Part shown: positions 2,556-57,721 of the stretch, piece after piece
Position numbering within the stretch: the stretch's first letter is position 1
How the letters are laid out: every line of letters begins with the position of its first letter
From: Gemmobacter aquaticus
Lineage (GTDB): Bacteria; Pseudomonadota; Alphaproteobacteria; Rhodobacterales; Rhodobacteraceae
Assembly: GCF_007859075.1 (NCBI RefSeq)
Contig: NZ_VOAK01000022.1
Location: 62,001 to 126,000, forward strand
Direction of reading: 5' to 3'
Length of the DNA stretch: 64,000 bases
Notes under the pieces: model-generated
Database searches by the model: none
What the model was told of the DNA's origin: nothing
The model's input: only the letters and a program-made list of their open reading frames with translations
Position numbers and translations under genes: made by a program

Positions 2556-5500
2556 TGCCGCCAGCCAGCGCCAGGTCGATGCCGCGCGACCTGACAGGTC
2601 AACCTGGCTTTCCGCCAACGCGGGGTCAGGAAAAACCCGTGTCCTGACCGATCGTGTTGCACGGCTCTTGCTGTCGGGCGTCGATCCGGCGCGAATCTTG
2701 TGTCTGACCTACACCAAGGCCGCCGCGTCCGAGATGCAGAACCGGCTCTTTGCCCGGCTTGGCGCCTGGGCAATGACACCCGAACCAGATCTTCGGGGCG
2801 CACTGGCCGAGCTTGGGATCGAAGGAGAGGTTTCACGTGAAACACTCGGCCAAGCGCGGAGGCTCTTCGCGCGGGCCATCGAAACCCCGGGCGGCCTGCG
2901 TATTCAGACGATCCACAGTTTCTGCGCGATGATCCTGCGTCGCTTTCCGCTTGAGGCCGGCGTCTCGCCGCAGTTCACCGAGATGGACGACCGCGCCTCG
3001 CGTCTCCTGCGGGAAGAGATCCTCGAGGAAATGGCGGAGTCGCTGGCGCCGCAGATCATGGCCGATCTGGCCCGATGCCACAGCGGACAGGACTTCATGC
3101 AGCTCGCCTCCGAGGTGATCCGCAACGCAGACGGTTTCCCCGCGGAGCACAGGCCTGACCATCTGGCCAGAGCCTTTGGCCTGCAGGGTCAAGAAACCGC
3201 AGAGTCCATCGTCGCGTCCGTGGTTCTGGGCGACGAAGTGCTCTGGCTACCCGAGGCGATTTCAATCATCGCAAAGGGGACAACGACAGATCAGAAAACT
3301 GCAGATCGACTTGCAGCACTGGATTTTTCGCAGCCGGACCTTGATTTGGTCGAGGCGCTGGAAAGCTTCATGCTGTTCGGGGCAACGGCCAAAACCCCGT
3401 TTGGCGCAAAGGCCGGAAGCCTACCCAACAAAGACGCGCGCACCGCGCTTGGACCACTGACTGTCAAGCTTGATGATCTCATGCGCCGCGTCGAGGACGC
3501 GCGCCCCCGCCGGCTTGCCCTGCTGGCCGCGCAGCGCAGCATAGTGCTGCACCGGTTCGCGCAGGCCTTTCTGCCGATCTACGCCCATCGCAAGACATTG
3601 CGCGGTGCGCTTGACTTTGATGATCTGATCTCGCGCGCCAAGGCCCTGTTGACCGACCCGGCGGTGGCGCAGTGGGTGCTCTTCCGGCTCGACGGGGGGA
3701 TCGACCACATCCTCGTGGATGAGGCGCAGGATACCTCGCCCCAGCAATGGAATGTGATCGAGCTTCTGGCGCAAGAATTCACATCGGGCAAAGGGGCCCG
3801 CGATGTCGAACGCACCATCTTTGTCGTAGGTGACCAGAAGCAATCCATCTACTCGTTTCAGGGCGCCGACGTCACCGCCTTTGCCGCGATGCGCGATGCC
3901 TTCGCCGATCGCCTGAACGCGGTCGGCGCGCCGTTCCAGCGGCTGGAACTTGAACATTCCTTCCGTTCATCCCCGCTCATACTCGACCTCGTCGACAAGA
4001 CCTTTCCGCCGCAGCTGCACCCCGCGCTCGGAGGACCCTCACAGCACCTTGCGTTCCGCAGCTCCATGCCCGGCCGCGTCGAGATCTGGCCGCCGATCCC
4101 GCCCGCGTCAAATCCGGCGGACGACGACTGGAGCAATCCGGTCGATCTCGTCACCTCGGAACATCATGCAGCCAGTCTCGGACGGCAGGTTGCCGAACGG
4201 ATCGGCCAAATCCTGTCGTCAGGCATCCTGATCCCGGATGGCAAAGGCGCCCGCCCTGTACACCCCGGCGACTTCCTCATTCTGGTCCGTCGCCGCTCTG
4301 CCCTGTTTGCCGAGATCATCCGCGCCTGCAAAGAGGCAGGTCTGCCGATTGCCGGGGCTGACCGGCTGCATTTGGGCGGCGAGATGGCGGTCAAGGATCT
4401 GACCTCGCTCCTCGCCTTTCTGGCCCTGCCCGAGGACGATCTCGCCCTTGCCGAAGTTCTGCGCTCACCCCTCTTTGGCTGGTCCGAGGCTCAGCTCTAT
4501 GATCTGGCCCAGCCCCGTCGTGGATACCTGTGGGAGGCGCTGCGCCAGTATGAGCGTGGCGCAGATGCTGTCGCGGTGCTGCAGGATCTGCGCGACAATG
4601 CCGATTACCTGCGCCCCTTCGACTTGATCGAACGCGCCCTGACCCGGCATGACGGAAGGCGCAAACTGCTTGCGCGCCTCGGGTCCGAGGCCGAAGACGG
4701 GATCAACGAGTTGTTGACGCAGGCCCTGATTTACGAACGCAATGACGTGCCAAGCCTGACCGGTTTCCTGACCTGGCTTCAGGCCGACGACGTGCAGATC
4801 AAGCGCCAGATGGAAAGCGCGGGTCGCAAGATCCGCGTGATGACAGTGCATGGCGCCAAGGGGCTTGAGGCCCCGATTGTCATCCTGCCCGACACCGCCG
4901 ATACCCGTCCAAACGACCGGGATGAGGTGCTGCGCCTTGGCCCGCATGCCGTCTGGCGGACGCCCTCGGGCGAGAGCCCCGCCCAGATCGAAGCCGTGCG
5001 CAGGGTGCGCGCAGAGCGCGCGCAGGCCGAATCCATGCGGCTTCTGTATGTCGCGCTCACCCGCGCCCAAAGCTGGCTGATCGTGGCGGCAGCAGGGGCG
5101 CTTGCCTCTCAAAAGGCCGGCGCGACCGAGGGCGAGCCCGCCTGGTATGATCTGGTCCGCAACGGTGCGCTGGCGATCGGGGCAAGCCCTCGCCCGGATG
5201 GAGTCCTCGCCTGCGAGTTCGGGACGTGGGAGCATGGCACACCCGACCTTGGGCCTGTTGCTGCACCGGATGTCCAGCTTCCCGGTTGGACCGCGACCCC
5301 GGCGCCGGCCGGGCAGCAGCCAGAAAAGCCTGTCTCACCGTCCGATCTTGGGGGCGCAAAGGCGCTACCCGGCGAGGGTGAAGGCGGAGATGTGCATGGT
5401 GTTGACCGTGGCACCGCCCTTCACGCGCTGCTGGAGCTGATGGAGCCTGATGCCTCGGATCTGTGGCCCATAATTGCGCGCAGTCTGATTGCTGAACCCG

Positions 5501-11772: not shown

Positions 11773-11788
11773 CGTTTCACGTGAAACA
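11773..11788. promoter_or_regulatory. parS centromere site B (between mutS and grpE)
   Basis: GTTTCACGTGAAAC at 11774-11787, one flanking mismatch from the 16-bp consensus. It sits in the 28-bp gap between the convergent mutS and grpE stops, directly beside the grpE terminator, and is the only site of the five outside coding sequence. Confidence 0.88.
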
Positions 11789-14265: not shown

Positions 14266-14874
14266 ATGCGGAAGTTCTCTGAGCCCCGTCTCCTGGTCGC
14301 GACGCATAACTCCGGCAAGCTGGAGGAAGTGCGTCAACTTCTATCGCACCTCGAACTTGAGGTCATCTCTGCCGGGGAACTCGGCCTGCCCGAACCTGAA
14401 GAGACAGAGTCGACCTTTGTCGGAAACGCCCGCATCAAGGCGCATGCCGCGGCAAAAGCCGCGCAGGCCCCTGCCCTGGCAGATGACTCCGGCATTGAGG
14501 TCGAGGCATTGGATGGTGCACCCGGAGTCTATACCGCAGACTGGGCTGAAACACCGAACGGTCGGGACTTTCTTCAAGCAATGACCCGGACCTGGCGGGC
14601 ACTTGAAGAAAAGGGCGCGGCTCACCCTCGTCGTGCCCGGTTCTGCTGCACGCTGGTTCTTGCCTGGCCCGATGGCCATGATGAGGTGTTCGTGGGTGGT
14701 GTTGACGGTCATCTGGTCTGGCCACCGCGCGGGGCGCTCGGCCATGGCTATGATCCCATCTTCGTCCCCTCAGGCAGCGATCACACCTTTGCGGAAATGA
14801 CCGCCGATGAAAAGAACAAGATAAGCCACCGGTCCGTTGCGCTGCGGAAGCTCGTTGCGGATTGTTTCACGTGA
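14266..14874 (+). CDS. rdgB: XTP/dITP pyrophosphatase (RdgB/HAM1)
   Basis: Hydrolyses non-canonical purine NTPs (dITP, XTP) and so keeps deaminated bases out of DNA. 202 residues from the ATG just after rph. Signatures are the N-terminal VATHNSGKLEEV (substrate and Mg loop), ESTFVGNARIKA, ALADDSGIEVEALDG and the C-terminal GYDPIFVPSG with KNKISHRSVAL. The final residues Cys-Phe-Thr and the TGA stop are all written inside parS site C. Confidence 0.96.
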   Translation: MRKFSEPRLLVATHNSGKLEEVRQLLSHLELEVISAGELGLPEPEETESTFVGNARIKAHAAAKAAQAPALADDSGIEVEALDGAPGVYTADWAETPNGRDFLQAMTRTWRALEEKGAAHPRRARFCCTLVLAWPDGHDEVFVGGVDGHLVWPPRGALGHGYDPIFVPSGSDHTFAEMTADEKNKISHRSVALRKLVADCFT

Positions 14875-16076
14875 AACAGCGATTGGATAATCCGGGCGCG
14901 TCTTCAGATAACGACAGCTGGCGCTCGGGGGGCTTCGGGCTATATGTTCACTGGCCATACTGCCTGGCGAAGTGCCCTTACTGTGACTTCAACAGCCATG
15001 TCTCAAACCAGGTGGACACGCAGGCATGGACAGAAGCCCTACGCGCAGAGGTCAGGCGGGTGGCTGAGGCAACCAGGGGCAGAGTGCTGAACAGCGTGTA
15101 CTTCGGCGGCGGAACGCCCTCCTTGATGCCACCCGAGATGGTTGGCGAAGTCCTCTCCGAAGCCTTCACACATTGGGCACCTGCCAATGATATCGAGGTG
15201 ACGCTCGAGGCAAATCCAACGTCCGTTGAAGCCGGAAAACTGTCAGCGTTTCGCGACGCCGGCATTAACCGTGTTTCGATGGGACTGCAGGCCCTGAACG
15301 ACGCTGATCTGAGACGTCTCGGCCGCCAGCATTCCGCGCAAGAAGGCAAATCGGCGTTTGAACTGGCGCAACGCGTCTTTGATCGGGTTTCGTTTGATTT
15401 GATCTATGCCCGCCAGTTTCAGACACTCGAAGCTTGGCGTTCCGAACTGCAGGAAGCGCTGTCGATGCAGGCCGGTCATCTTTCGCTCTATCAGTTAACG
15501 ATCGAGGACGGCACGGTCTTTGGCCGCATGCATCAACAGGGACTGCTGCGCGGGTTGCCAACTGACGATTTGGGAGCTGATTTTTGGGATCTGACGCAGG
15601 AGCTTTGCGAAGCTGGCGGTCTGCCCGCCTATGAAGTCTCCAACCACGCCCGACCGGGGCAGGAATCGCGCCACAATCTGGTCTATTGGAATTACGGAGA
15701 CTACGCAGGGGTTGGTCCAGGCGCGCATGGCAGGCTTTCGATCGGTGGTGCACGATACGCAACAGCGGCACCAAAAGATCCTGCAGCCTGGCTAAAGCAG
15801 GCGCTTTCTCTGCATGTTGACGACAGTCCGGTTCACTTGAGGCGCGATGAGCAGTCGACCGAATTCTTGTTGATGGGTCTACGCCTGCGCGAAGGGATCA
15901 GCGCTTCGCGCTTCGCCTCAATCGCCGGTCATCCGCTGTCCGAAGCAGCCGTAACCGAACTGGTCGAGCTTGGCATGATCGAGGTCAATGGTGATCAGGT
16001 TCGCACGACCAAATCCGGGAGACCGCTTCTGAATGCGGTCCTCCGCAAGCTCATTCTGGCGATGCCAGGGGAATAG
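14862..16076 (+). CDS. hemW: HemW-type radical SAM protein (haem chaperone / HemN-like)
   Basis: Radical-SAM protein of the coproporphyrinogen dehydrogenase-like family; HemW members are thought to carry haem to target proteins rather than act as HemN. The [4Fe-4S] motif is CLAKCPYC (Cys-x3-Cys-x2-Cys), followed by GGGTPSLM and a C-terminal HemN-like domain. The start is uncertain: a TTG at 14862 gives 404 residues and reads through parS site C as Phe-His-Val-Lys, while a GTG at 14871 lies in the middle of the site and a TTG at 14883 follows it. It overlaps the rdgB end by 13 bp and converges on parB. Confidence 0.9.
   Translation: MFHVKQRLDNPGASSDNDSWRSGGFGLYVHWPYCLAKCPYCDFNSHVSNQVDTQAWTEALRAEVRRVAEATRGRVLNSVYFGGGTPSLMPPEMVGEVLSEAFTHWAPANDIEVTLEANPTSVEAGKLSAFRDAGINRVSMGLQALNDADLRRLGRQHSAQEGKSAFELAQRVFDRVSFDLIYARQFQTLEAWRSELQEALSMQAGHLSLYQLTIEDGTVFGRMHQQGLLRGLPTDDLGADFWDLTQELCEAGGLPAYEVSNHARPGQESRHNLVYWNYGDYAGVGPGAHGRLSIGGARYATAAPKDPAAWLKQALSLHVDDSPVHLRRDEQSTEFLLMGLRLREGISASRFASIAGHPLSEAAVTELVELGMIEVNGDQVRTTKSGRPLLNAVLRKLILAMPGE
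14863..14878. promoter_or_regulatory. parS centromere site C (rdgB end / hemW start)
   Basis: A perfect 16-bp TGTTTCACGTGAAACA. It supplies the last codons and TGA stop of rdgB and, in another frame, early codons of hemW. Located about 1.2 kb beyond the 3' end of parB. Confidence 0.95.
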
Positions 16077-16080
16077 TCGA

Positions 16081-16995
16081 TCAGAGGCCGTCGCGGCGAG
16101 CCAAAGATAGTGCCTGGCAGAGAAAATCTAGGTCGTCCAGCGTATTGTAGCGTATCCGGACTTCACCTCGCTCGCCGCCCGGCTCATGCAGAATCGATAC
16201 CTGCATTCCGAGGTTTGCGATCAGGTCCCGCTCCAGCGCAATCGTGTCAGCATCTTTTGCGGCCGACGGGCGCTCACCAGTCGGTCTCGGCGGAGCAATC
16301 GGGTTGCCCGCGCGCTTGACCAGGTTCTCGGTCTCGCGCACCGATAGTCCCCGGTCGATTACCTCGCGGGCCAGTTTGGACGGATCAGGTGTGGTTATCA
16401 GGGCGCGCGCATGTCCCGCACTCAGCTTTCCGGAGATGACGTGCGCCCGGACTTCCTCTGGCAGGTTGAGCAACCGCAAGAGGTTGGCAATGTAACTCCG
16501 GCTCTTTGAAAGCGCATCGGCCAGTTTCTCCTGAGTGTGGCCAAACCGGTCCATCAGTTGACGAAAGGCTTGTGCCTCTTCGATTGGGTTCAGATCGGCG
16601 CGCTGAATGTTCTCGATGATCGCAATCTCGAGCACCTCAGTGTCGCTCAGGTCACGGATCAGCACTGGAACTTCATGAACCTTGGCGAGTTGCGCGGCTC
16701 GCCACCGCCGCTCACCCGCAACGATTTCGTATCCGGATTGACCCTGCGACGGACGAACAATCAGTGGCTGCAGAATTCCCTTGGCCTTGATCGATTCCGC
16801 CAGGTCGGCGAGGTCTTCTTCGACAAAGTTCCGCCGGGGCTGATCCGGGTTCGGTCGAATCTGGTCGACAGGGAGCATGTCGGTCCTGCGCGTGGGTGGT
16901 CCATTCGCCTCGACCTGTCCCGGCGCGATGTTGATGTCGGCCATCAGGGCAGAAAGCCCCCGCCCCAGACCACGTGTCGGCTTACGTTCCATCAT
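16081..16995 (-). CDS. parB: ParB, CTP-dependent chromosome partition protein
   Basis: Loads as a clamp at parS and spreads along DNA for origin segregation. At 304 residues it is typical for chromosomal ParB. Visible: the ParA-interacting N-terminal box [12 protein letters not shown] (9-20), the CTP-binding arginine patch GERRWRA (94-100), ENIQR (128-132), a helix-turn-helix around 152-175 ([20 protein letters not shown]) and a C-terminal dimerisation tail. The start overlaps the parA stop by 4 bp (ATGA). Its binding sites are the five parS sequences in this window. Confidence 0.98.
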
Positions 16996-17816
16996 GCTCT
17001 CTCTCTTCCCCGCGACCGGAAACCGTTTCGACCAACAATCTCCAATGCCAGCGCCTTGTAGGCCTCACTGCCCTTCGATGACGGGTCATAGGTCAGCACT
17101 GGCATCGCAAATGACGGCGCCTCGCTGACCCGGACATTCCTTGGTACCACCGTTCCAAAGACCAGGCTCCCCAGCGTAGCCCTGACATCGCTCTCAACCT
17201 GTTGTGACAGATTGTTCCGGCCGTCATACATCGTGAGGATAACACCCTCGATCCGAAGATTAGGGTTCGCAGATTCCCGAACCGTTCGAATCGTAAGCAT
17301 CAGATTCGAAAGTCCCTCCAGCGCGAAGAACTCGGTCTGGAGCGGAATGAGCACAGAATCGCTGGCGCAGAGCGCATTGACCGTCAGCAGACTCAGCGAC
17401 GGCGGGCAATCTATCAGGACATAGTCCAGGGACAACGAGTCAATGTCCGGCCCGCGCAGTGCGTCACTGAGGAGAAAGCTTCGTTTTTCATTGGCCACCA
17501 TCTCGATGTCAGCAGATGCGAGATCAGAGTTTGCCGGACAGATCCAGAGATTCTCAAAACGCGTCGGCCGAATGACATCCGTGATGCGCGCGTCCTCGAT
17601 CAGAAGGTCATAGCTTGTGAGCGTACGGTCGGCAGGCTCAACGCCCAAGCCGGTAGAAGCGTTTCCCTGCGGATCAATATCGACAACAAGCACCCTGCCA
17701 CCAAGCTCTGCGAACCCAGCTGCGAGATTGATTGCCGTTGTTGTCTTACCGACACCGCCCTTCTGATTGGTGATGGCGATGATCTTGGGCAAAGGCGGGC
17801 GTGTTGGGTCAGACAT
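16992..17816 (-). CDS. parA: ParA, Walker-type ATPase for chromosome segregation
   Basis: ATP-dependent, non-specific DNA-binding partner of ParB that moves origins apart. 274 residues, with the deviant Walker [10 protein letters not shown] (19-27), Walker A' [11 protein letters not shown] and Walker [14 protein letters not shown]. Its 5' end overlaps the 3' end of rsmG by 8 bp and its 3' end overlaps parB, so mnmG-rsmG-parA-parB read as one operon pointing away from the candidate origin. Confidence 0.98.
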
Positions 17817-18432
17817 GTTCGATTGCAGACAACTTCAGGAGGCGGGCATCCTTGTTTGTCATACTCTCTATCTCTTCAATGTGAAACCGCCACGTATTCC
17901 TCGCCTCATGCACCTCATCGAGATAGGCTGCACCCTTAGGGAAGACTGCAAACCCGCCGCTTGAAAGGTGCTTCGCCGCATAGCCGCAAAGAACCGATAG
18001 GTTGGACAGCGCCCGAGCAGAGACCACATCGGCAGACATAGGTTTGAGTTCCTCTATTCGAACGCTGTGAACGCAGACATTCCGCAGCTCAAGCTCACGG
18101 GCTGCCTGACGAAGGAAGGTGCACTTTCTCTGGTCAGAATCCACGAGCTCAAATCTGGTGTTCGGAGATACTTCATTCGAAACGATCGCAAGCACCAGAC
18201 CTGGCAGTCCACCGCCAGACCCGAGATCGAGCCAGGTTCCGGGCAAACGATCAAGAAACGGCGCCAGCTGAACCGAATCCAAGATGTGGCGAGCCCACAA
18301 ATCCTCGATCGTTGATCGGGCAACCAGGTTGATGGCGGGATTCCACTTGACGAGCAGAGCGGCGAATTGCTCAAGCCTATCCAGTGTTTCACGTGAAACA
18401 TCTACCCCCGCGACAACGGTACCCGCGCTCAC
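17809..18432 (-). CDS. rsmG: RsmG (GidB), 16S rRNA m7G527 methyltransferase
   Basis: SAM-dependent methyltransferase that modifies G527 of 16S rRNA. 207 residues, with the SAM-binding [15 protein letters not shown] (around 67-81) and the [20 protein letters not shown] region. Residues Val-Ser-Arg-Glu-Thr near position 12 are encoded by parS site D. It overlaps mnmG by 4 bp and parA by 8 bp. Confidence 0.96.
18385..18400. promoter_or_regulatory. parS centromere site D (inside rsmG)
   Basis: A perfect 16-bp TGTTTCACGTGAAACA in codons 11-16 of rsmG, about 0.6 kb upstream of the parA start. Confidence 0.95.
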
Positions 18433-20300
18433 GACGCAACCTTCACATTCGTGCGCCGGATCTTGGCCAACAGCAGCACCAAGGCAGCAGGTGTCATACC
18501 TTCGATCTTTGCTGCCATGGCGAGAGTTGAGGGGCGGAGCCGGACAAGCTTGCTGGCAAGCTCACCGGATAGCCCCGAGACCGCACCATAGTCAAAGTCA
18601 TCCGGGATCCGGGTCATCTCGTCGCGGCGCAAAGCAGAAACGTCAGCCGCCTGCCGCTCAGCAAAACGCGAATAGAGCGCGTCGGTGCGAATTTGGACCC
18701 GGGTCTCGGGGCTTAATGCTGCAAACACTGGCGCGACCGGGCACATTTGTTCGGGCGTTACGTCAGGATACGACAGCAACTCCAGCCCCGTACGCCGACC
18801 GCCGTCCTTGCTAACCTCAACGCCCAGGCCAGCTGCCTCGCCTGGAGTGAGTGAGACATTCTGCAAAGCCAGTGATCCGCGCTCCAGGTCTTCGAGCTTT
18901 TGTTCAAACGCCTGTCGTCTGGCTTCACGCACGCAGCCAATGTCCACACCCAACGGGGTCAGACGCTGATCCGCGTTGTCAGCGCGGATCGTCAGCCGAT
19001 ACTCAGCGCGAGAGGTAAACATGCGATACGGCTCTGTCACACCAAAGCTGATCAGGTCATCGATCATCACGCCAATATAGCTTTGCGACCGACTAAACAC
19101 TGTCGGTTCGCGGTCACGGACATGCGCGACTGCGCCGAGAGCCGCCACAAGCCCCTGCGCTGCGGCTTCCTCATATCCTGTTGTGCCGTTGATCTGACCA
19201 GCAAGAAACAGCCCAGGAACAGATTTCGACTCAAGGGTATCGCGCAGCGCACGAGGATCAAAATAGTCGTACTCAATAGCGTAGGCCGGCTGGAGGATCC
19301 GCACATCTTCAAGCCCGACAATCGAACGGACGTAGCATTCCTGTACGTCTACCGGCAGGGAACTGGAGATACCGTTGGGATAGACTGTATCGTCTTCCAA
19401 ACCCTCCGGCTCGAGGAAAACCTGATGGCTGTCCTTGTCGGCGAACCGCACAACCTTGTCTTCAATCGACGGGCAGTACCGCGGCCCGACACCCTCGATA
19501 TGCCCCCCATACATGGCGGATCGCGACAGGTTCTCGCGAATTATCTCATGGGTCCGGCTGTTCGTATGGGTAATCCCGCAACTCACCTGTCGCGCAAAGG
19601 GCTTACTGTTCAGGAATGAAAACAGAACCGGCTCTTCATCACCGTCCTGACGGCCAAGAATATCCCAATTGATCGTCTTCCCATCGAGGCGCGGGGGTGT
19701 CCCCGTCTTCAGGCGGCCTCGGGGCATGTCCATGTCCGCCAGTCGTTGCGCCAGGGAAATCGACGGCTTATCGCCCATGCGCCCGGCCGAGTGACGAACG
19801 TCACCAATATGGATGATACCATTCAAAAAGGTTCCAGCGGTCAGAATCACTGCGCCAGCTGCGATCTCAGCCCCGTCAGCCAGGCGGATGCCAGAAACGC
19901 GCCCGCCATCGAACATCAGATCGACAGCTTCACCCTCGATGATTGTCAGCAGAGGTTCAGCCCGCAGCCTCTCCTGCATGGCCTTGCGGTAGAGCGCACG
20001 ATCCGCCTGCGCGCGCGGCCCCTGAACGGCAGGGCCCTTCCGCCTGTTCAGAACCCTGAATTGAATACCCGCACGGTCGGCGACATCCGCCATCACGCCG
20101 TCGAGCGCGTCAATCTCGCGAACCAGATGCCCTTTCCCCAACCCGCCAATAGCCGGATTGCAGGACATCGAACCAATGTCACGTAGACGCAGGGTCACCA
20201 GCGCCGCAGTCGCACCCATTCGGGATACTGCAGCCGCCGCTTCGCAGCCAGCGTGGCCAGCGCCGATCACAATGACATCGAAATGTTTCACGTGAAACAC
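18429..20300 (-). CDS. mnmG: MnmG (GidA), tRNA U34 carboxymethylaminomethyl-modifying enzyme
   Basis: FAD-dependent partner of MnmE in forming cmnm5U34 in tRNA. 623 residues, with FAD motif [12 protein letters not shown] (12-23), [20 protein letters not shown], a second GGR-type nucleotide motif and the C-terminal tRNA-binding region. The start codon and next five codons (Met-Phe-His-Val-Lys-His) are parS site E. Three bp separate it from mnmE upstream. Confidence 0.97.
20284..20299. promoter_or_regulatory. parS centromere site E (mnmG start)
   Basis: A perfect 16-bp TGTTTCACGTGAAACA covering the first codons of mnmG. It is the site nearest the candidate origin, about 3.2 kb away. Confidence 0.95.
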
Positions 20301-21616: not shown

Positions 21617-22900
<1,284 letters not shown>

Positions 22901-23029
22901 GGGAATCTGCTCGTCCAATACGACCCCTGTGCCGGGGTTCGGGATCATGCTGTCATAGGGAAACGCCAAAGGCCGGACGGCCCCGCTTGCCCGCCGAAAT
23001 AAGCGCTCACCTTCCTCGAGTCAACACAA

Positions 23030-23485
23030 TCAGAACTTCACGATCACCGAGGCCACGATCACGATCATCAAAATCGTCGGGACCTCGTTCATGATCCGGT
23101 ACTGTCGCCCGCTCAACCGGTTGCCCTGCACCTGAAACTCCTTGCGACGCGCAGAGAGCCACATGTGGAACCAGGTCATCCCCAGCACCGAGGCTCCCTT
23201 CGTCCAGGGCCAGATCATCGACCAGTCGACGATCCCCGGCGTGAACACCAGCGCAAGCCCAAAGATCCAGGATGCAATCATCGCAGGGTTCATGATCGCC
23301 CTCAGCAGCCTGCGTTCCATCACCTGGAACAGCGCATCGGTCTTGCTTCCCGCCTCTACGCTTTCGACGTGATAGACGAAAAGCCTCGGCAGATAGAACA
23401 GCCCCGCCATCCAGCTGATCACCGAGATCACATGCAGGAATTTCACCCAAGGGTAGCCACTTGCCAGCAGGTCGGTGATCATCAT
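23030..23485 (-). CDS. hemJ: HemJ-type protoporphyrinogen IX oxidase (membrane protein)
   Basis: Small integral membrane protein of the HemJ/CopD-like family that oxidises protoporphyrinogen IX in haem synthesis. 151 residues with four predicted membrane segments, and the conserved early helix HVISVISWMAGLFYLPRLFV whose His18 is a likely haem ligand; RxxxIMNPAM and WFHMWL also fit the family. Two adjacent ATGs (23485, 23482) are possible. It is the last leftward gene before the candidate origin; the 129 bp to rho hold nothing I recognise. Confidence 0.9.
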   Translation of the reverse strand: MMITDLLASGYPWVKFLHVISVISWMAGLFYLPRLFVYHVESVEAGSKTDALFQVMERRLLRAIMNPAMIASWIFGLALVFTPGIVDWSMIWPWTKGASVLGMTWFHMWLSARRKEFQVQGNRLSGRQYRIMNEVPTILMIVIVASVIVKF

Positions 23486-23892
23486 GCTCTCCTTCTCTGC
23501 ATCTTCTTAAAGAAAGAATAGAAAAAGGGAATGATGTGGTAGGGACCGTGGATAACCGGATTTCGTGAACTGTCCCTGAGTTTCTCCACAGGAACCCTGT
23601 CGTGGACAAGTCTGGGACAAGCAGCCGGATCTTGACAGTATGGTCTGAAAAAATTCCGTAAATTCAATGAGAAGAGATAGATGCCGCACTGTGGGAAAAG
23701 GCGGCCTGTCTGTCCCTTGCCTGTGAGTGTCGCCTTCCTCCACGCAAGGCGGGATCGCCCTTGCACAGGTGGACAGTTCTCTCGCTTGTCTTGACAAGTG
23801 GCACCATCCGTCGGCACCTCTCGGCACAGACCTCTTTCATCCGGAACTGGCATGCAGGAACAAACCGCGCTTTTCCACAGGTCCGCCCCCAG
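23486..23892. other. Candidate chromosomal replication origin (oriC)
   Basis: 407 bp without a plausible gene, between outward-pointing hemJ (left) and maf (right). DnaA-box-like 9-mers against TTWTNCACA: TTTTCCACA at 23871-23879 (perfect), minus-strand TTATCCACG at 23555-23547, TTCTCCACA at 23582-23590 and minus-strand TTTCCCACA at 23698-23690 (one mismatch each); weaker ones at 23601-23609 and 23759-23767. AT-rich patches lie at about 23503-23540 and 23638-23685, rare in this GC-rich window. GACAAG recurs at 23605 and 23615 and as an inverted pair CTTGTC-TT-GACAAG at 23785-23798; GGCAC recurs at 23800, 23813 and 23823. parAB and five parS sites lie within 21 kb. No replication data can be read from sequence alone. 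Confidence 0.72.
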
Positions 23893-24492
23893 ATGACCAG
23901 ACCGCTTCTTCTGGCCTCGGGCTCGACCACCAGACTTGCCCTGCTCCGCAACGCGGGCTTGCAGGTCACCGCCACTCCCGCCCGGATCGACGAGGCCTCC
24001 ATCCGCGCCTCGCTTGAGGCCGAGGGCGCAAATCCGCGCGACATTGCCGACACGTTGGCCGAAATGAAGGCCCGCAAGCTTTCAGATCGCAATCCTGACG
24101 CGCTTGTTCTGGGCTGCGATCAGGTGCTCGAATTCGACCGCCGGGTGTGGGGAAAGCCGGAAACGCCGTCGCAGGCGCTGGAACATTTGCAGATGCTGCG
24201 CAGAAACCCCCATCGCTTGCTCTCGGCACTGGTCCTCTATGACAAGCAAGAGCCGGTCTGGCGCCATGTGTCGCGGGCCGATCTGACAATGCGCAACGTC
24301 TCGGACCGGTGGCTCATTGGCTATATCGAACGGAACTGGGACCAGATCCGCCACTGTGCCGGCGCCTATATGATTGAGGCCGAAGGGCTTCGGCTTTTCA
24401 GCGCCATCGAAGGTGACTACTTTACCATCCTGGGGCTGCCGATGTTGCCGCTTCTCTCCTATCTCGAACTCAGGGGCTTTATCGAGTCATGA
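23893..24492 (+). CDS. maf: Maf family nucleotide pyrophosphatase
   Basis: Hydrolyses modified or non-canonical NTPs (in the family: dTTP/UTP or 7-methyl-GTP). The ATG at 23893 ([11 protein letters not shown]) gives 199 residues; longer in-frame starts would run into the candidate origin. Visible: [16 protein letters not shown] (7-22), the conserved LGCDQVLEF and the C-terminal Asp/Glu-rich [19 protein letters not shown]. It is the first rightward gene after the origin, and maf-aroE-coaE are joined by 4-bp ATGA overlaps. Which Maf subtype it is cannot be decided here. Confidence 0.93.
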
Positions 24493-25921: not shown

Positions 25922-26612
25922 GATCGTTCTCGACACTGAAACGACCGGGTTCGAGCCCTCGGAAGGGCATCGCATTGTCGAGATTGGTGCGGTGGAGTTG
26001 TTTAACCACCTGCCGACCGGGCGCACCTTCCACGTGTACCTGAACCCTGAACGGTCGATGCCGAAAGAGGCGTTCGAGGTGCACGGGCTGGGCGATGATT
26101 TCCTGCGTGACAAGCCGCTCTTCCGGCAAGAGGCGCAGAATTTCCTCGATTTCGTCGCAGATTCAAAGCTTGTCATCCACAATGCAAGCTTCGACATGAA
26201 GTTCCTGAACTGGGAGTTGCGCACCCACGGATTCCCGCAGATCCCGAACGATCGGGCGATCGATACGCTGATGATCGCGCGGTCACGGTTCCCCGGCTCG
26301 CCTGCCTCGCTCGATGCGCTGTGCCGCCGCTTCGGCATCGACAATTCGATGCGCGAAAAACATGGCGCGCTGCTCGACAGCGAAATTCTGGCAGAGGTCT
26401 ATCTGGAGCTGATTGGCGGGCGTCAGCCGGATCTGGTACTCGCCCCGGTCGCGTCAACGCCCTCACGTCAGGCGGGCGCGCCAGATGAAGTCTGGCGCCC
26501 TCGCGCGCGCCCGACGCCCCTGCCCTCGCGCCTGACCGAGGCTGAGGCCGCCGCCCATGCTGCCTTTGTGGCAAAGCTGGGCGACGGGGCGATCTGGCTT
26601 AAGCGCAGCTGA
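25914..26612 (+). CDS. dnaQ: DNA polymerase III epsilon subunit, 3'-5' proofreading exonuclease
   Basis: Proofreading subunit of the replicase. The start is taken as the TTG at 25914, which makes the protein open with the usual [11 protein letters not shown]; no ATG fits. 232 residues with Exo[10 protein letters not shown] (Asp7, Glu9), Exo[16 protein letters not shown] and ExoIIIe [17 protein letters not shown], the full DEDDh set. A C-terminal tail matches the alpha-binding region in position. Stops directly abut the convergent secB stop (26612/26613). Confidence 0.95.
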
Positions 26613-27116
26613 TCACTGCACCGGCTGGGCTTCGGGCTTGGCCTGCGCCTGGGCGCGCCGGGCCAGTTCCTGCCGGTACAGCGCGAGGAAATCGACGGTA
26701 TCGACATTGAGCGCCGGGAAGCCGCCGTCGCGCGTGACATCCGAGATGATGCGGCGGATGAACGGGAACAGCAGCCGCGGGCATTCGATAAGCAGGAAGG
26801 GGTGAAGCTGGTCTTCCGATACGCCTTCGACATGGAAGACCCCGCCATATTCCAGCTCAAGCAGGAACAGCGTGTCGCCCGTGGCCTTGTTCTTGGACGA
26901 TACGCGGAACTTGCTGACCACTTCGTACTGGTGCTCAACCGCGCGCTTACGGGCATCAAGGCTGACGGCAACCTGTACATCGGGCTGCATCTCAGAGCCG
27001 GTAAAGCCCTTCTGGGCCAGAACGTTCTCAAAAGACAGGTCGCGGACGAACTGCGCCAGAACGCTCATCTTCACCTGCGGGGCGGCTTCCGGGGCCGCGC
27101 CATTCGCTTCGGTCAT
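26613..27116 (-). CDS. secB: SecB protein-export chaperone
   Basis: Tetrameric cytoplasmic chaperone that keeps preproteins unfolded for SecA. The start at 27116 (MTEANGAAPEAAPQ) follows an AGGAGAGA on the minus strand; 167 residues. Conserved elements are LAQFVRDLSFENVLAQ, the beta-sheet EYGGVFHVEGV and the ECPRLLFPFIRRIISDVTRDGGFP stretch. It lies 68 bp downstream of fxsA, same strand. Confidence 0.96.
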   Translation of the reverse strand: MTEANGAAPEAAPQVKMSVLAQFVRDLSFENVLAQKGFTGSEMQPDVQVAVSLDARKRAVEHQYEVVSKFRVSSKNKATGDTLFLLELEYGGVFHVEGVSEDQLHPFLLIECPRLLFPFIRRIISDVTRDGGFPALNVDTVDFLALYRQELARRAQAQAKPEAQPVQ

Positions 27117-27184
27117 GGATCTCTCCTGCTGCATTGGCATTTGCCAGTTTTCGCCGACCTTCCTAGCAGCGCCGAGATCTTATC

Positions 27185-27667
27185 TCAATGCCGCGTCCAA
27201 CCCGAGGGGCGGCTGTCGTTCCCGCGCGGCGATTCACTGCCGTCGCTCGGGTCAAGCTCGATGAACTCGCCATCGATGACCACTTCTGGCCCCTGGCGAA
27301 CCCCGAAGCGTTCTGCCACTTGCACGCGGCGCGCAATCGCGTCGGTTATCAGCCTGCGCACCGGCGGGATCAGCAGCAAAAGCCCGATCGCATCACCCAG
27401 AAATCCGGGCAGGATCAGCAGACCGCCCGCCAGGATCAACAGCGCCTGATCGCCGATGGTGCCGCCCCTTGGCTCACCGATGCCCGCCATCGTTGCGCGG
27501 AACTGCGCGGCAGTGCGCTCACCGCTGGTACGGATCACTGCGCCACCCAGAAGCGCCGTCCCAAAGATCACCGCAAGCGAGGCAAGCAGGCCAATTCGAC
27601 CGCCAACCGTGACAAACAGCGCGATCTCGATCAACATGATGGCCACCAAAAGGCCAAACAGCCGCAT
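27185..27667 (-). CDS. fxsA: FxsA family membrane protein
   Basis: Small cytoplasmic-membrane protein; E. coli FxsA reduces F-plasmid exclusion of phage T7, but the ordinary role is unknown. The start at 27667 (MRLFGLLVAIMLIEIALF) gives 160 residues. Membrane segments lie at about 1-20, 26-45 and 75-95, with the family's GxxxLxxxGGLLILPGFLGDAIGLLLLIPPVR stretch (only its character is given here) and a polar C-terminal tail. Divergent from the Tim44-like gene across a region with two dyads. Confidence 0.85.
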   Translation of the reverse strand: MRLFGLLVAIMLIEIALFVTVGGRIGLLASLAVIFGTALLGGAVIRTSGERTAAQFRATMAGIGEPRGGTIGDQALLILAGGLLILPGFLGDAIGLLLLIPPVRRLITDAIARRVQVAERFGVRQGPEVVIDGEFIELDPSDGSESPRGNDSRPSGWTRH

Positions 27668-27692
27668 TTTTCGTCCTCTTGCTCTCAACAGT

Positions 27693-27717
27693 CCGTCAGA
27701 CGGTGGACTTGTCCACC
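27693..27717. promoter_or_regulatory. Two abutting dyads between fxsA and the Tim44-like gene
   Basis: CCGTC-A-GACGG (27693-27703) runs into GGTGGAC-TT-GTCCACC (27702-27717), both perfect inverted repeats, in the 108-bp gap between divergent genes. The place suits an operator or overlapping promoters; no regulator can be named. Confidence 0.45.
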
Positions 27718-27775
27718 CCCCTTTCCTACATAGTGTGGCAAGTCCAATGATGCCATATCTGTTCCCGAGGTCCGC

Positions 27776-28438
27776 ATGAACAACGCTTTGATCCAACTCC
27801 TCGTCCTGGCAGGGATCGCGGTGTTTCTCATCATCAAGCTGCGCTCGGTCCTTGGAACGCGCGAAGGCTTTGAGAAGCCGCCGTTGCCCGTGGATGAAAC
27901 TGCGTCGCGTCCGGTGCTGCGCTCGGTCGATGCGACCGACCCGACAGATGACCGCGACATCACCGACCACGCCCCCGAAGGCTCGCCCGCGGCTTTGGCC
28001 TTGGCGCGCATGAAGCAGGTTGAGCCCAGCTTTGCGGTGGGCACCTTCCTGCAAGGCGCCCGCGGGGCCTATGAAATGATCCTGATGGCCTTTGAGCGTG
28101 GCGACATCTCTGGCGTGCGGGCCTTTTTGACGCCCGAAGTTGCCGAAAGCTTTGATGAGGCGATAGCCGCGCGCAAGGATCAGGGGCTGACCGTCGAGGC
28201 GAATTTCGTCGGTCTGCGCGAACTCTCGCTGGTTACTGCCGATTTCGTTGAATCAACGCAAGAGGCCGAGGTGACTGTCCGCTTCGTGGGCGAGCTGACC
28301 TCGGTGGTGCGCAATGCGTCGGGCCAGATCGTCGAAGGCTCGGCGACCGAGATCAAGCGCCAGCGCGACGTGTGGACCTTTGGCCGCAAGATGGGCAGCA
28401 CCGACCCGAACTGGCAGCTGGTGGCCACCGGAGAATGA
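27776..28438 (+). CDS. Tim44/TimA-like membrane-anchored protein
   Basis: Bacterial relative of the mitochondrial import motor subunit Tim44. 220 residues: one N-terminal membrane anchor (about 5-22), a low-complexity acidic linker to about 75, then the Tim44-like fold (FLQGARGAYEMILMAFERGD, LTPEVAESFDEAI, EIKRQRDVWTFGRKMGS, NWQLVATGE). In alphaproteobacteria this family (TimA) sits with secB, as here two genes away. The stop overlaps the mltA ATG by 4 bp. Confidence 0.88.
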   Translation: MNNALIQLLVLAGIAVFLIIKLRSVLGTREGFEKPPLPVDETASRPVLRSVDATDPTDDRDITDHAPEGSPAALALARMKQVEPSFAVGTFLQGARGAYEMILMAFERGDISGVRAFLTPEVAESFDEAIAARKDQGLTVEANFVGLRELSLVTADFVESTQEAEVTVRFVGELTSVVRNASGQIVEGSATEIKRQRDVWTFGRKMGSTDPNWQLVATGE

Positions 28439-29466
28439 TGGGTGGCGCGCGACCAGTCCTTGTTGCCCTGCTGGCGGCGCTTGCCATGACGGCACCGGCA
28501 AAGGCACAGGTGCTGGCTTTCGAAGAGCTTGACGGCTGGGCCGAGGACGATCATCGCGCCGCGCTCAGGACGTTTCTGAACACCTGCGACCAACTGGAGG
28601 ATGCGGCCTGGCAGCCGCTATGTTCCCTGGCCCGCGATGCAGCCGCCAGCCCAGAAAGCGCGCGCGCGTATTTCGAGCTGTTCTTCCGGCCCGTTCTGAT
28701 CGGCGATCCTCCTGCGCTCTTCACCGGCTACTATGAGCCAGAGCTCGACGGCTCGCCCAGCCAGACCGCGCGGTTCCGCGTTCCGATCTATGCCCGCCCG
28801 CCTGAATTGCAGGATGGCTCTGTCTACTACTCGCGCGCCGACATCGAGGCGGGCGCGCTGCGGGGCCGTGGGCTTGAGATTGCGTGGCTGGAAGATCCAG
28901 TCGATGCGTTTTTCTTGCAGATTCAGGGCTCTGGCCGCATTCGGATGCCGAATGGTCATGTGATGCGCGTGGGATATGGTGGCAAGAATGGCCATCCGTA
29001 CCGGTCGGTCGGGCAAGAATTGGTGCGACAGGGCACCTATTCGGCCGATCAGGTATCGGCCCAGACGATCCGGGGATGGGTCAAGCAGAACCCGGGACCC
29101 GGCAATGCGCTACTTGATCACAACCCCTCTTACGTGTTCTTCCGCCGCCTGCCCGACCTGCCCGCCGACCGCGGCCCGATCGGTGCAATGGGGCGGTCAA
29201 TCGTCGACATGCGCTCGATCGCGGTCGATCCGAGCTATCATACTCTGGGTGCGCCGGTCTGGATCGAGAAAGACGGGCGCGAGCCGATGCGGCGGCTGAT
29301 GGTCGCGCAGGATACCGGTGGGGCGATCAAGGGCGCGCAGCGCGCCGATATCTACTTTGGCACCGGTGACCGCGCGGGTGATGCGGCGGGAACGGTCAAG
29401 GATGGTGGGCGGATGGTCGTGCTGTTGCCCATCGACCTGGCCTTTGCGCAAACCCTCGACGGCTAG
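28435..29466 (+). CDS. mltA: MltA family lytic murein transglycosylase
   Basis: Cleaves peptidoglycan glycan strands to 1,6-anhydromuropeptides. The start at 28435 or the adjacent ATG at 28438; 343 residues. A signal peptide ends near ALAMTAPAKAQ without a lipobox, so a soluble periplasmic rather than lipoprotein form is likely. The MltA domain shows FTGYYEPELDGS and FFLQIQGSGRI, and the 3D domain has QDTGGAIKGAQRADIYFGTG, containing the catalytic Asp in DTGG. Start codons overlap the Tim44-like gene. Confidence 0.92.
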   Translation: MMGGARPVLVALLAALAMTAPAKAQVLAFEELDGWAEDDHRAALRTFLNTCDQLEDAAWQPLCSLARDAAASPESARAYFELFFRPVLIGDPPALFTGYYEPELDGSPSQTARFRVPIYARPPELQDGSVYYSRADIEAGALRGRGLEIAWLEDPVDAFFLQIQGSGRIRMPNGHVMRVGYGGKNGHPYRSVGQELVRQGTYSADQVSAQTIRGWVKQNPGPGNALLDHNPSYVFFRRLPDLPADRGPIGAMGRSIVDMRSIAVDPSYHTLGAPVWIEKDGREPMRRLMVAQDTGGAIKGAQRADIYFGTGDRAGDAAGTVKDGGRMVVLLPIDLAFAQTLDG

Positions 29467-29469
29467 ACC

Positions 29470-30072
29470 ATGGCCCGGCGTCGTGATCTGCGCCCTGAGG
29501 AGGCCGAGTTGTGGCAGGCGGTCGCCCGCACGGCCCGGCCAATGCACGCAGGGCAGGTCCATCATCGTGCGACCCCGAAGCCTGATCCCACCCCGACCCG
29601 CGACCAGATCGCCCCCGCCCCGACGGAGCCCGGGCTCAACCGCTTTCGCGTGGGCGAAAGGGCCGGTGCAAAGCCGGTGATCGACGTTCAGCCCGGCACG
29701 GCTGACCGTCTGTCATCGGCGCCTGTCCTGATGGATGCCAAACATCATGGTCGGATGATCCGTGGCAAGCTGGTTCCCGAGGCGCGGATCGACCTGCACG
29801 GCATGACCGTGGCCGAGGCCCACCCCGAACTGATCCGCTTTGTGATGAACAGCTGGCATGCTGGCTTTCGGCTTCTGCTGGTGATTACCGGCAAGGGAAA
29901 ACCGGGGCCGGATTACGGTCCGATCCCGATGCGCTATGGCGTTCTGAAGCACCAGGTGCCGCACTGGCTGCGCCTGCCGCCGCTTGGACCTTGCGTCCTG
30001 CAGGTAACCGAGGCGCATCTGCGCCATGGCGGCGCAGGCGCCTATTACGTCTATCTGCGCCGCGGCGGTTAG
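29470..30072 (+). CDS. Smr domain protein
   Basis: Small protein with a C-terminal Smr (MutS2-related) domain, a fold with nicking-endonuclease or RNA-cleavage activity in studied relatives. 200 residues; a basic N-terminus (MARRRDLRPEEAELW), a Pro-rich linker and the Smr domain from about 100 with IDLHGMT and the loop LVITGKGKPG, which stands in place of the usual G-H/K-G motif. It starts 3 bp after mltA and is probably cotranscribed. Function in the cell is unknown. Confidence 0.88.
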   Translation: MARRRDLRPEEAELWQAVARTARPMHAGQVHHRATPKPDPTPTRDQIAPAPTEPGLNRFRVGERAGAKPVIDVQPGTADRLSSAPVLMDAKHHGRMIRGKLVPEARIDLHGMTVAEAHPELIRFVMNSWHAGFRLLLVITGKGKPGPDYGPIPMRYGVLKHQVPHWLRLPPLGPCVLQVTEAHLRHGGAGAYYVYLRRGG

Positions 30073-30075
30073 GCG

Positions 30076-31200
30076 CTACTGCGCCAGATCGTTCGCGACG
30101 GCGCCCACCGGCGCCATGATCACTTGCGTCGCATTCTGTACCGTCAGCACGACGCCCGGCAACAGGCCCACCTTGCCGCGCTGATCGCCCGAGAAGGCGG
30201 TGTTGATGTCCTCGACCCGGCCAATGATCTGCAGCAGCGCCGGGTTGTCGCCGACGTTGAAATGCCCCGCACCCTTGTTGAACTCCGTGGTGTCAAGATA
30301 GGTGACCTCGAGATCGGAAATACGCGAGATGTCCTGCAGGTTGCCAAGCCGCTCGGGCTGGCCGGTGATGCGCGCCGAGACGCTGAGCGCCGTGTCGCGT
30401 GAAGACCCGAAGATCACAAAGGGCTGCGGAAGCTGATCGAAGGACTGCGCCTGAATGCGGAACAGATCCACATCGATATCCGGTGAAATCAGAATGACCC
30501 CCGCGATGCGGTCCTTCGCCGGATCCTGCCTCAGCGCCATCTGGCGCAGCGTTTCCATCGTGAGGGCCGCACCCATCGAATGCGCCACGATGATGATGCG
30601 CTGAACCCCCGCCGCCGCCGTCTCGCGCAGCAGCGTCTCCAGTCCGTCGCGGGCAAACATCGACGAATCCCGATCAGCAACATAGCCTAGCGGGTTCGCG
30701 GCCGATGGCCAGCTGTAGTGCATGGTTATGCCGGGGGTCTCGATGTCATGCGCCAGCTGCGCGATGCGGAACAGCCCATCGGCGAAGGTGTTGTTAAAGC
30801 CATGCACAAAGATCACGGCGTCGCGCTCATTGCGCGGCCGAGCCCGTACCTGCCCGGCAAGATTGGATCGAAACTCGCGTGTTGAGGGGTAGTGAACCGC
30901 CTCTGTGATCAGGAAATGCCGCTCTGGATCGGACTTCTGCGATGAGCCCGGAAAGGCGATCTGGCCCGGTTTGCGGTCAGGTGGTACCGAGACGTCATAT
31001 CGCGCAAAGCGCTCAACCTCGGACCGCTGGTTTCCGAAGGTTCCGGTCTCGGGGTTGATGTCGCGCATCGTGCCGATGAAGACCTGCTCTACAGCACCAA
31101 CTTGGGCCGCAGCAGGATCAAGGCGCACATAGGCGCGCTGCGCGCATCCGACCAGAACCAGCAGGCAGCAGCCAATAACAATCTGACGCACCGACAGCAC
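30076..31200 (-). CDS. Alpha/beta-hydrolase lipoprotein (DUF900 type)
   Basis: 374-residue predicted lipoprotein: a short signal peptide ends in the lipobox LVGC (Cys19). The domain resembles the DUF900/esterase-like alpha/beta hydrolases: FVHGFNNTFADGLFR around the oxyanion region, HYSWPSAANPLGY, the nucleophile elbow AHSMGA, and DIDVDLFR for the acid. It is likely anchored on the periplasmic side. Substrate unknown. Downstream of hslU (58 bp) on the same strand and convergent with the Smr gene. Confidence 0.82.
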   Translation of the reverse strand: MLSVRQIVIGCCLLVLVGCAQRAYVRLDPAAAQVGAVEQVFIGTMRDINPETGTFGNQRSEVERFARYDVSVPPDRKPGQIAFPGSSQKSDPERHFLITEAVHYPSTREFRSNLAGQVRARPRNERDAVIFVHGFNNTFADGLFRIAQLAHDIETPGITMHYSWPSAANPLGYVADRDSSMFARDGLETLLRETAAAGVQRIIIVAHSMGAALTMETLRQMALRQDPAKDRIAGVILISPDIDVDLFRIQAQSFDQLPQPFVIFGSSRDTALSVSARITGQPERLGNLQDISRISDLEVTYLDTTEFNKGAGHFNVGDNPALLQIIGRVEDINTAFSGDQRGKVGLLPGVVLTVQNATQVIMAPVGAVANDLAQ

Positions 31201-31258
31201 TCCTGCCTTGGGTTAAAGCCGCGCGAAGGTCGCCGATTCGAGTATCAGCGACAAGACC

Positions 31259-32557
31259 TTACAGCACATAGCGGCTGAGATCGGCGGATTTCGCCAAAGC
31301 GCCCACGTTCGTTTCCACGAAGGCCGCGTCAACCACCACCGCCTCGCCGCCGCGATCGGGGGCCGTGAACGACAGCTCCTCGAAAACCCGCTCCATGACG
31401 GTGTATAGCCTGCGCGCCCCAATGTTCTCGACACTCTGGTTTACGTCGGCGGCTATACGGGCAAGGGCGGCGATCCCGTCTTCGGTAAAGCGTATCTCCA
31501 CCGCTTCGGTCGCCATCAGTGCTGCATACTGGCGCGTCAAGGCGTTGTCGGTCTCGGTCAGAATGCGGACAAAGTCGCCTTCGGTCAGCGGACGCAACTC
31601 GACCCGGATCGGCAGTCGTCCCTGCAGTTCCGGCAGCAGGTCTGACGGTTTGGCGATATGGAAGGCGCCGCTTGCGATGAACAGGATATGATCTGTCCTG
31701 ACCGGCCCGTACTTCGTCGAAACCGTCGTCCCTTCGATCAAGGGAAGCAGGTCGCGCTGCACGCCTTCGCGGCTGACGTCGGCACCACGGGCATCGGCGC
31801 GTGCGCAGATCTTGTCGATCTCATCCAGAAAGACGATGCCGTTTTCCTGAACACTCTCCAGCGCCGCCGCTTTCACGGCCTCGTCATCCAGCAGCTTGTC
31901 GGCCTCTTGCCCCAGCAGGATTTCATAGCTGTCGGCCACCGTCAGCTTCTTGCGGGTCGCGCGGCCGCCAAAGGCCTTGAACAGATCCTGCAGACCCTGC
32001 ATCTGCATCTCCATTCCATTACCGCCCCCCATCATCATCGGAAAGCTGGGTGTATCCTGCACCTCAAGCTCGATCACCGTCTGATCCAGTTCGCCCTTCT
32101 TCAGCTTCTGGCGGAACATCTCGCGCGTCTGTTCGCGGGCGTCCTTCCCCGCGATGGCCTCGATCACCCGGTCCTCGGCGGCCTTGAGCGCGCGGGCCTT
32201 GACGTCCTCGCGCATACGGGCGCGGGTCTCGATCATCGCGGCATCAACCAGATCGCGGATTATGCTGTCGACATCGCGACCGACGTATCCCACTTCGGTG
32301 AACTTGGTCGCCTCGACCTTGAGGAAGGGTGCGCGTGCGAGTTTCGCCAGGCGGCGGCTGATCTCGGTCTTGCCGACGCCGGTCGGGCCGATCATCAAGA
32401 TGTTCTTCGGGTAGACCTCGTCCCGCAGGTCGTCGCCCAGTTGCTTGCGCCGCCAGCGGTTACGCAGGGCGACCGCCACGGCGCGCTTGGCCTCGGCCTG
32501 GCCGATGATGAAGCGATCAAGCTCGGACACGATTTCGCGCGGGGTCAGGTTGGTCAT
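31259..32557 (-). CDS. hslU: HslU, ATPase of the HslUV protease
   Basis: AAA+ unfoldase that feeds proteins into HslV. 432 residues with Walker [10 protein letters not shown] (about 57-65), the pore loop GYVGRDVDS, an I domain that includes a Met-rich stretch [13 protein letters not shown], Walker [11 protein letters not shown], and a C-terminus ending DLSRYVL that inserts into HslV. It is separated from hslV by a GNAT gene whose stop overlaps the hslU ATG by 4 bp. Confidence 0.97.
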
Positions 32558-33090
32558 GCGTGCTCCTCGGGAACGTGCCGCATCAGAAGGCTATCGCCTG
32601 TGCGGTCTTTCAGGTCTTCAATCACCCGGAACCCTGCCTTTTCATAGGCGCGCACGGCCCGAAGGTTGGCGGGGTCGGGGTCGATGATGATGACGGTTTC
32701 GCCTTCAGTGCGAAGGCGCGCCACGAACAGACGCAAGGCGGCAGAGCCAATGCCTTGCGAGAGCCTCGACGCTTCGGCGAGGCTCAGATCCACGCCCACT
32801 GTATGATCAGCAAGCCACGCAAGCCAGGGCGCCTCTGTCAACCAGGGTTCCACCCTGTTCGAGGCAATCCGCCAGACCTGAATGTAGCCGATGGGCTGGC
32901 CCCGCTGCAGGATGATGAAGGGCCGTGTGTCATCGCGCCCTTCGATCATGTCGCGGATATAGCCGAGTTCGGTCTCGGGCGTGCCCCACCATTCGCGCCA
33001 GTGGGGGCGTTCCAGCCAGTCGGCAAGCATGGACAGATCGTCCGTTGAAACCGGCCGAAAGTCGAGATCTTGTGCCGCCTCAGCGGGCAC
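32554..33090 (-). CDS. GNAT N-acetyltransferase between hslV and hslU
   Basis: 178-residue acetyltransferase of the GNAT fold, closest in look to the AAC(6')-type branch: [47 protein letters not shown], the acetyl-CoA loop [16 protein letters not shown], and [20 protein letters not shown]. It is translationally embedded: its start overlaps the end of hslV by 11 bp and its stop overlaps hslU by 4 bp. Substrate unknown; nothing here shows antibiotic modification. Confidence 0.88.
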
Positions 33091-33640: not shown

Positions 33641-33778
33641 GGGTGCCTCCGTTTCCATTCTATATGGCGCGCCAGTGGCCGCTTCACAAGCGCAGGGCAA
33701 ATGCGCGGGATTTTATCCGTTAAGCGGTTCTTTACGCAGGCCTTTCAATCTGGGACCGGGTGAATGCAGGGGTGTGAT

Positions 33779-34591: not shown

Positions 34592-34685
34592 CCGGGTCGC
34601 GCGACTGTTGTCGTTAGGGGGATCTTAAGCCCGCGGGCGCAGGGTCGGCTCCAGACCGGATTCGATCTTTGGAAAGGCACCCATC

Positions 34686-35984: not shown

Positions 35985-35993
35985 GGGCGCGCC

Positions 35994-37442: not shown

Positions 37443-37443
37443 G

Positions 37444-39536: not shown

Positions 39537-39570
39537 AGGGTGTGCACAAGAAACAGGCTTGATGGTCATA

Positions 39571-39657: not shown

Positions 39658-39678
39658 GCCCTGAAACAGGGAGGCAGC

Positions 39679-40811: not shown

Positions 40812-40820
40812 GAGGCCAAC

Positions 40821-41372: not shown

Positions 41373-41379
41373 GGGTGCC

Positions 41380-57673: not shown

Positions 57674-57721
57674 GTTGACAAATCGCAGGCCCACATCACC
57701 AATGTGGATAAGTCACAGGTG

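Follow-up and report, generated by a model that had tools for sequence, protein, structure and literature searches.

The 407-bp intergenic gap between hemJ and maf in Gemmobacter aquaticus is the predicted replication origin (oriC) of the main chromosome and is of the Rhodobacteraceae type. We put the probability of this reading at roughly 0.94. The gap lies in a window of 64,000 nucleotides that corresponds to bases 62001-126000 of contig C22 in a draft genome of 3.99 Mb and 27 contigs. The original prediction placed oriC between hemJ and maf, and both the place and the function are supported by our analysis: the GC skew points to this region, and the parS sites, the density of DnaA boxes, the conservation of the gap and the synteny with the Caulobacter origin (Cori) agree with an origin here.

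An oriC next to maf is already in print. The oriC of Ketogulonicigenium vulgare, predicted with Ori-Finder, adjoins maf, and this is described as conserved across Rhodobacteraceae in DoriC (PMC4793288). oriC has also been assigned in 101 Rhodobacteraceae with Ori-Finder and curated by skew, GC content and parAB (PMC6699656). The gap studied here is directly next to maf, in the same place as in K. vulgare and DoriC, and nothing essential differs. The identification is correct and ordinary. What is added for this genome is hemJ on the other side, the spacing of the boxes and the positions of the parS sites.

Gene neighbourhood and DnaA boxes of the gap

hemJ and maf are divergent, and their starts leave exactly the 407 bp between outward-pointing genes that had been predicted (Table 1). 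The GC content of the gap is 0.533 as compared with 0.614 in its 5-kb flanks, 0.625 in the window and 0.636 in contig C22. The AT-rich patches in the original prediction are present, with 70% AT over 40 bp. Open reading frames overlapping the gap were not considered further, as the alignment of the region (12 sequences) is rich in indels and has a mean column identity of 58%. An Rfam scan of 23000-24400 found no RNA; one match was at chance level (E 0.94, 18.5 bits versus a gathering score of 68).

We scored the neighbouring genes against protein family models. Matches above NCBIfam cut-offs were obtained for hemJ, rho, mnmE, mnmG, rsmG, aroE, coaE and the ParB-family protein, and matches above Pfam cut-offs for dnaQ (RNase_T) and secB. 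The neighbours that had been named from the sequence hold for rho, mnmE, mnmG, aroE and parB (NCBIfam) and for maf and dnaQ (Pfam). The name of parA relies partly on its place, with solely ParA-type models, all below cut-off, among the matches listed for it (25 of 29). The names mutS, hrcA and hemW used below were assigned from the sequence and are presumed. The maf side of the gap has motB-like and flagellar rod/hook genes at 33764-37442 and a urease alpha subunit gene at 41686-43392. Flagellar genes near oriC have been reported in Phaeobacter inhibens and Dinoroseobacter shibae (PMC12363192).

Table 1. Features in and around the gap (positions in the window).
Feature	Position	Strand	Remarks
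Predicted oriC	23486..23892	.	407-bp intergenic region between hemJ and maf
hemJ (protoporphyrinogen oxidase HemJ)	23030..23485	-	left flank; above NCBIfam cut-off
maf (Maf-like protein)	23893..24492	+	right flank; well above Pfam cut-off, below every NCBIfam cut-off listed
rho	21617..22969	-	above NCBIfam cut-off
parA	16992..17816	-	ParA-type matches below cut-off; named also from place beside parB
parB (ParB/RepB/Spo0J family)	16081..16995	-	above NCBIfam cut-off
DnaA box A TTATCCACG	23547..23555	-	1 mismatch
DnaA box B TTCTCCACA	23582..23590	+	1 mismatch
DnaA box C TTGTCCACG	23601..23609	-	2 mismatches
DnaA box D TTTCCCACA	23690..23698	-	2 mismatches
DnaA box F TTTTCCACA	23871..23879	+	1 mismatch; directly upstream of maf
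Purine-rich, AT-rich block beside box A	23505..23545	+	conserved in genus; weak candidate for unwinding region, six NAN triplets (DnaA-trio-like)
AT-richest 40 bp of gap	23644..23683	.	70% AT; second strand-opening candidate
parS TGTTTCACGTGAAACA	20284..20299	.	perfect; over first codons of mnmG
parS	18385..18400	.	perfect; within rsmG
parS	14863..14878	.	perfect; start of ORF 14862-16076 (presumably hemW-like)
parS-like	11773..11788	.	1 mismatch
parS-like	2829..2844	.	1 mismatch

One perfect and three near-perfect DnaA boxes had been predicted in the gap. The perfect box TTATCCACA is absent from it; within the window this sequence occurs once, at 57703-57711. The near-perfect boxes are there: three boxes differ from TTATCCACA at one position and two more at two positions, making a cluster of five in this intergenic region. 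We take box F to be perfect only against the looser E. coli consensus TTWTNCACA. In 3000 dinucleotide shuffles of the gap, none had as many as three boxes within one mismatch and 0.13% had five or more within two. The gap is also the sole place on the 284-kb contig C22, scanned in 10-bp steps, with three boxes per 407 bp, or with five at two mismatches. The remaining 21,142 non-coding bases of this contig, as defined by rough ORF-based calls, contain none of its 24 near-box sites.

Across the genome there are 253 near-boxes versus 265 matches to the reversed pattern, so single near-boxes mean little. Exact copies of TTWTCCACA outnumber those of the reversed control (35 versus 12 in the genome), and the window has more near-boxes than its shuffles (11 versus a mean of 4.1). 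At the density of 253 sites, a Poisson estimate gives approximately 0.03 non-overlapping three-box windows per genome. Outside C22, no other triplet was seen among the 92 contig C1 sites (from the 100 of 253 sites that were listed). Among the listed sites there were six close pairs of DnaA-like boxes on contig C1, at 437614, 948043, 1067550, 1149399, 1395012 and 1440557, and these are possible DnaA titration or promoter sites.

GC skew and parS sites around the gap

The original prediction named a skew minimum at another locus as evidence against it. We examined contig C22 and four relatives. On C22 and in G003 and G013 the minimum was near the gap, in G023 a change of sign bracketed it, and in G019 the offset was 169 kb, largely explained by an inversion. 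For G. aquaticus the skew was computed from this one contig, which is 284 of 3987 kb. The cumulative skew drops to C22:95,687 (33,687 in the window), after which it climbs, with local dips and plateaus, almost as far as the other end of the contig. This puts the minimum 9.8 kb to the right of the gap. We counted this offset and the weakness of the skew against the gap being oriC.

For the relatives we took 20 samples of 20 kb in G003, G013 and G019 and 15 in G023, and read through stretches of 420 kb in G003, 257 kb in G013 and 280 kb in G019. In the 420 kb read in G003, which is of the same genus and has a 3.4-Mb contig, the minimum, at 1,878,496, is 15 kb from the gap (about 1,893,828-1,894,239), and the signs of the 20 samples along the contig fit an origin at the gap. 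In G013 (one contig, 3.56 Mb) the minimum in the stretch read is at 3,475,899, less than 2 kb from the gap at 3,477,464-3,477,846. To the left of this gap, samples have negative skew as far back as 1.6 Mb; to the right they are mostly positive beyond the first 0.4 Mb, but over that distance they are near zero, and this was counted against an origin at the gap. In G023 the sign flips between the samples at 1.10-1.12 and 1.20-1.22 Mb, so that the gap is bracketed, with maf at 1,180,517-1,181,107.

The exception is G019, where the minimum is at 2,743,869 and the gap near 2,912,300-2,912,860. In this genome mutS is inverted and 176 kb off, together with the block that adjoins mutS in G013; in the window, G003 and G013, mutS adjoins hrcA. 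A segment of about 178 kb has thus been inverted in G019, and one of its breakpoints separates mutS from hrcA, at about 11 kb from the gap. The gap itself is outside the inverted segment, whose skew should be flipped, and this largely explains the offset. However, the outer 20 kb, at 2,723-2,744 kb of C3 in G019, keeps a skew sign that the inversion does not explain (the inverted loci, L139-L148, span 2,723-2,902 kb), and we counted this against the origin. Contig C22 also differs from G013 at 44-68 and 117-138 kb, where blocks that flank the gap have swapped arms and orientation, resembling inversions around an origin.

We also fitted a change-point model to third-position skew with a gene-strand term. 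The 5-95% bootstrap interval was 1,875-1,933 kb in G003 and 3,440-3,493 kb in G013, and the gap is inside both. On C22 the model fails to locate an origin (best position 48 kb, interval 8-277 kb), which again counts against our reading.

In many bacteria the origin is beside dnaA, and the gap might then be a site that is only regulated by DnaA. dnaA is at C22:231,646, on the same contig as the gap and 146 kb from it, the record of G013 begins at dnaA, and dnaA has been described as kept close to ori in Rhodobacterales (PMC8116508). By contrast, the cumulative skew over the whole of C22 has no minimum at dnaA, and no other 407-bp stretch of this contig, the dnaA region included, has three boxes. 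The stretch read in G013 includes dnaA, yet its minimum is at hemJ-maf, 81 kb from dnaA. We rejected an origin at dnaA for the lack of a skew minimum and of a box cluster there and regard it as extremely unlikely.

An origin close to the gap and outside it, for example at the skew minimum at 33.7 kb in the window, with the gap boxes serving transcription of hemJ and maf or titration of DnaA, is very unlikely. The minima on C22 and in G003 do both fall on the maf side of the gap, and two outward promoters in the gap are plausible. However, there is no box with up to one mismatch from 26,181 to 42,422 in the window, and the minimum in G013 is on the opposite side of the gap.

The distribution of parS sites is also as expected of an origin at the gap. 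Matches to TGTTTCACGTGAAACA with two or fewer mismatches occur at five places in the 4.0-Mb draft, all of them in the window, with distances to the gap of 3.2-20.7 kb. As a control, the pattern reversed gave one match per strand in the draft genome. In the stretches read from relatives there are three perfect sites in G003, two in G013 and two in G019, all within 9 kb of their respective gaps, and, in addition, two imperfect sites in G003 and one in G013. The gap has both parAB and parS close by. As a comparison, parAB was near ori in almost all alphaproteobacterial genomes analysed in a published survey (PMC8116508). In G. aquaticus, all three perfect parS sites sit in coding sequence.

Conservation of the gap in relatives

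We compared the boxes of 10 of the 11 genomes of the genus, leaving out G009, which had no close Maf and no HemJ match. Boxes B and C are 19 bp apart in 10 of 10 loci, and the distances from box A are 35 bp to B and 54 bp to C in 9 of 10. The box on the maf side is identical in all 10. Although G009 is given as 100% complete (360 contigs), a HemJ match is absent and the only Maf match is a distant one.

We also examined two larger sets of loci. Maf places were matched in 58 of 61 genomes; the best 30 became loci, and the gaps analysed are those of these 30. hemJ is upstream of maf in 26 of them and rho in four. The hemJ-type gaps are 351-423 bp in 24 of the 26, with two at 1205 and 1223 bp, and the rho-type gaps are 509-540 bp. 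A second set of named loci comprises the best 80 of at least 568 confirmed stretches, and these are the closest loci and not a sample. In all 80 the order is hemJ (74) or rho (6), gap, maf, and the gap is 300-700 bp long in 79, with a median of 399.5.

Among these 80 closest loci, boxes with no more than one mismatch numbered 187 over 33,827 bp of gap sequence (5.5 per kb), whereas the flanks, which are mostly coding, had 113 over 634,512 bp (0.18 per kb). The density is thus 31-fold higher in the gaps. At least one such box was present in 75 of the 80 gaps and at least two in 57. One-mismatch boxes were absent from the other five, and this was counted against the gap being oriC. In the hemJ-type gaps (97 of 110) the boxes are concentrated at a small number of relative positions, and at each of these one strand predominates; the middle bin, that of box D, holds 43 minus-strand boxes with up to one mismatch.

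Boxes also persist where the flanking genes differ. All six rho-type named loci have at least one box with hemJ not adjoining, and boxes are kept where hemE or ppsR intervenes between the gap and hemJ or maf (L249, L044 and L047). This argues against the boxes being there for transcription of hemJ and maf, and for an oriC in the gap itself.

Two observations concern individual records. In L032, L034, L040 and L041 hemJ is missing from the locus, and the rest of the genome offers no more than a weak match to the HemJ family (E 4.7e-12 to 1.3e-14). The records of L224 ("Nocardioides marinus") and L248 ("Exiguobacterium profundum") carry a Rhodobacteraceae hemJ-gap-maf locus, and their titles look wrong.

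Relation to Cori and a proposed mechanism of opening

Cori of Caulobacter crescentus lies between hemE and COG1806 (PMC1914354). The gene neighbourhood, DnaA boxes and an AT-rich stretch are common to Cori and the gap. We take COG1806 to be ppsR, which is PF03618. Whereas Cori is flanked by hemE and ppsR, the G. aquaticus gap is not: contig C21 carries hemE, and a PF03618 search that was positive in Caulobacter gave no match in the draft genome. Over a wider set, PF03618 was found in 3 of 37 genomes of the family (G. aquaticus included in the search) and in 11 of the 24 class members outside the family. In 12 of these 14 genomes it lies no more than 250 bp from maf; in G037 the distance is 2 kb, and in G055 it is on another contig. 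Where the locus is longer, these genes account for the extra length: between gap and maf in L044 and L047 it is a PF03618 gene, and between hemJ and gap in L249 it is a PF01208 (hemE) gene. Because ppsR or hemE adjoins the gap in these three loci and PF03618 is beside maf in 12 of 14 genomes, the gap is the counterpart of Cori by position, hemE and ppsR having left.

The gap also differs from Cori, with its regulators, in having no consensus site for CtrA or IHF, and this was counted against an origin at the gap. CtrA sites (TTAA-N7-TTAA) were absent from the gap with up to one mismatch; across the 30 gaps of the whole-genome loci, by raw count, 4 had an exact site and 13 a site with up to one mismatch. 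With an assumed consensus, IHF sites were absent from the gap and occurred in 2 of the 30. A scan of the gap for CcrM sites (GANTC) gave nothing. The loci L045 and L047, from different genera, share the same exact CtrA-type 15-mer (TTAA-N7-TTAA) near gap positions 182 and 176, which suggests that CtrA control may persist in some lineages.

One tentative reading, which we hold to be possible although rather doubtful, is that the Rhodobacteraceae origin is a stripped-down Cori. A core of about 400 bp would have outlived moves or losses of hemE and ppsR on either side, keeping a rigid A-B-C triplet (35 and 19 bp in the genus) and the maf-side box. In this lineage the core would be without recognisable CtrA or IHF sites, and initiation might then depend on DnaA geometry alone and be uncoupled from CtrA.

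How the strands might open is suggested by the DNA next to box A. In E. coli the opening region is on the CACA side of box R1, and the purine-rich block is on the CACA side of box A in the same geometry. Its run of six NAN triplets has a p of 0.05 versus shuffles, with a spacer of 19. Over 96 of 110 gaps the mean run was 3.93 triplets versus 3.31 in shuffles, and 19% of the gaps were below p 0.05. The basal unwinding system of Bacillus subtilis is described as a DnaA box, a spacer of up to 16 (the limit of the program used) and at least three NAN triplets (PMC8287927). The gap resembles this in that consecutive NAN triplets follow a box, here box A; it is unlike it in that the spacer exceeds the program's limit and shuffles give runs almost as long. 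We regard the block as a weak candidate for a DnaA-trio-like unwinding step.

From the features of the gap we propose the following sequence of events. DnaA-ATP would bind a fixed set of boxes, namely A (minus), B (plus) and C (minus) at constant spacing, one in mid-gap and one before maf. The bound DnaA would oligomerise and open AT-rich DNA, most likely at the purine-rich block on the hemJ side of box A, or else at the AT-rich centre. DnaB would then be loaded, and two forks would leave, one through rho-mnmEG-parAB and the other through maf-aroE-coaE-dnaQ. Bound at the parS sites close by, ParB would then separate the new origins.

A firm origin position gives the orientation of the genome, the assignment of replichores and growth rates from coverage. 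A database record may set base 1 at dnaA instead, as that of G013 does. For the family, the comparison indicates that the core of the origin is kept while its textbook neighbours leave.
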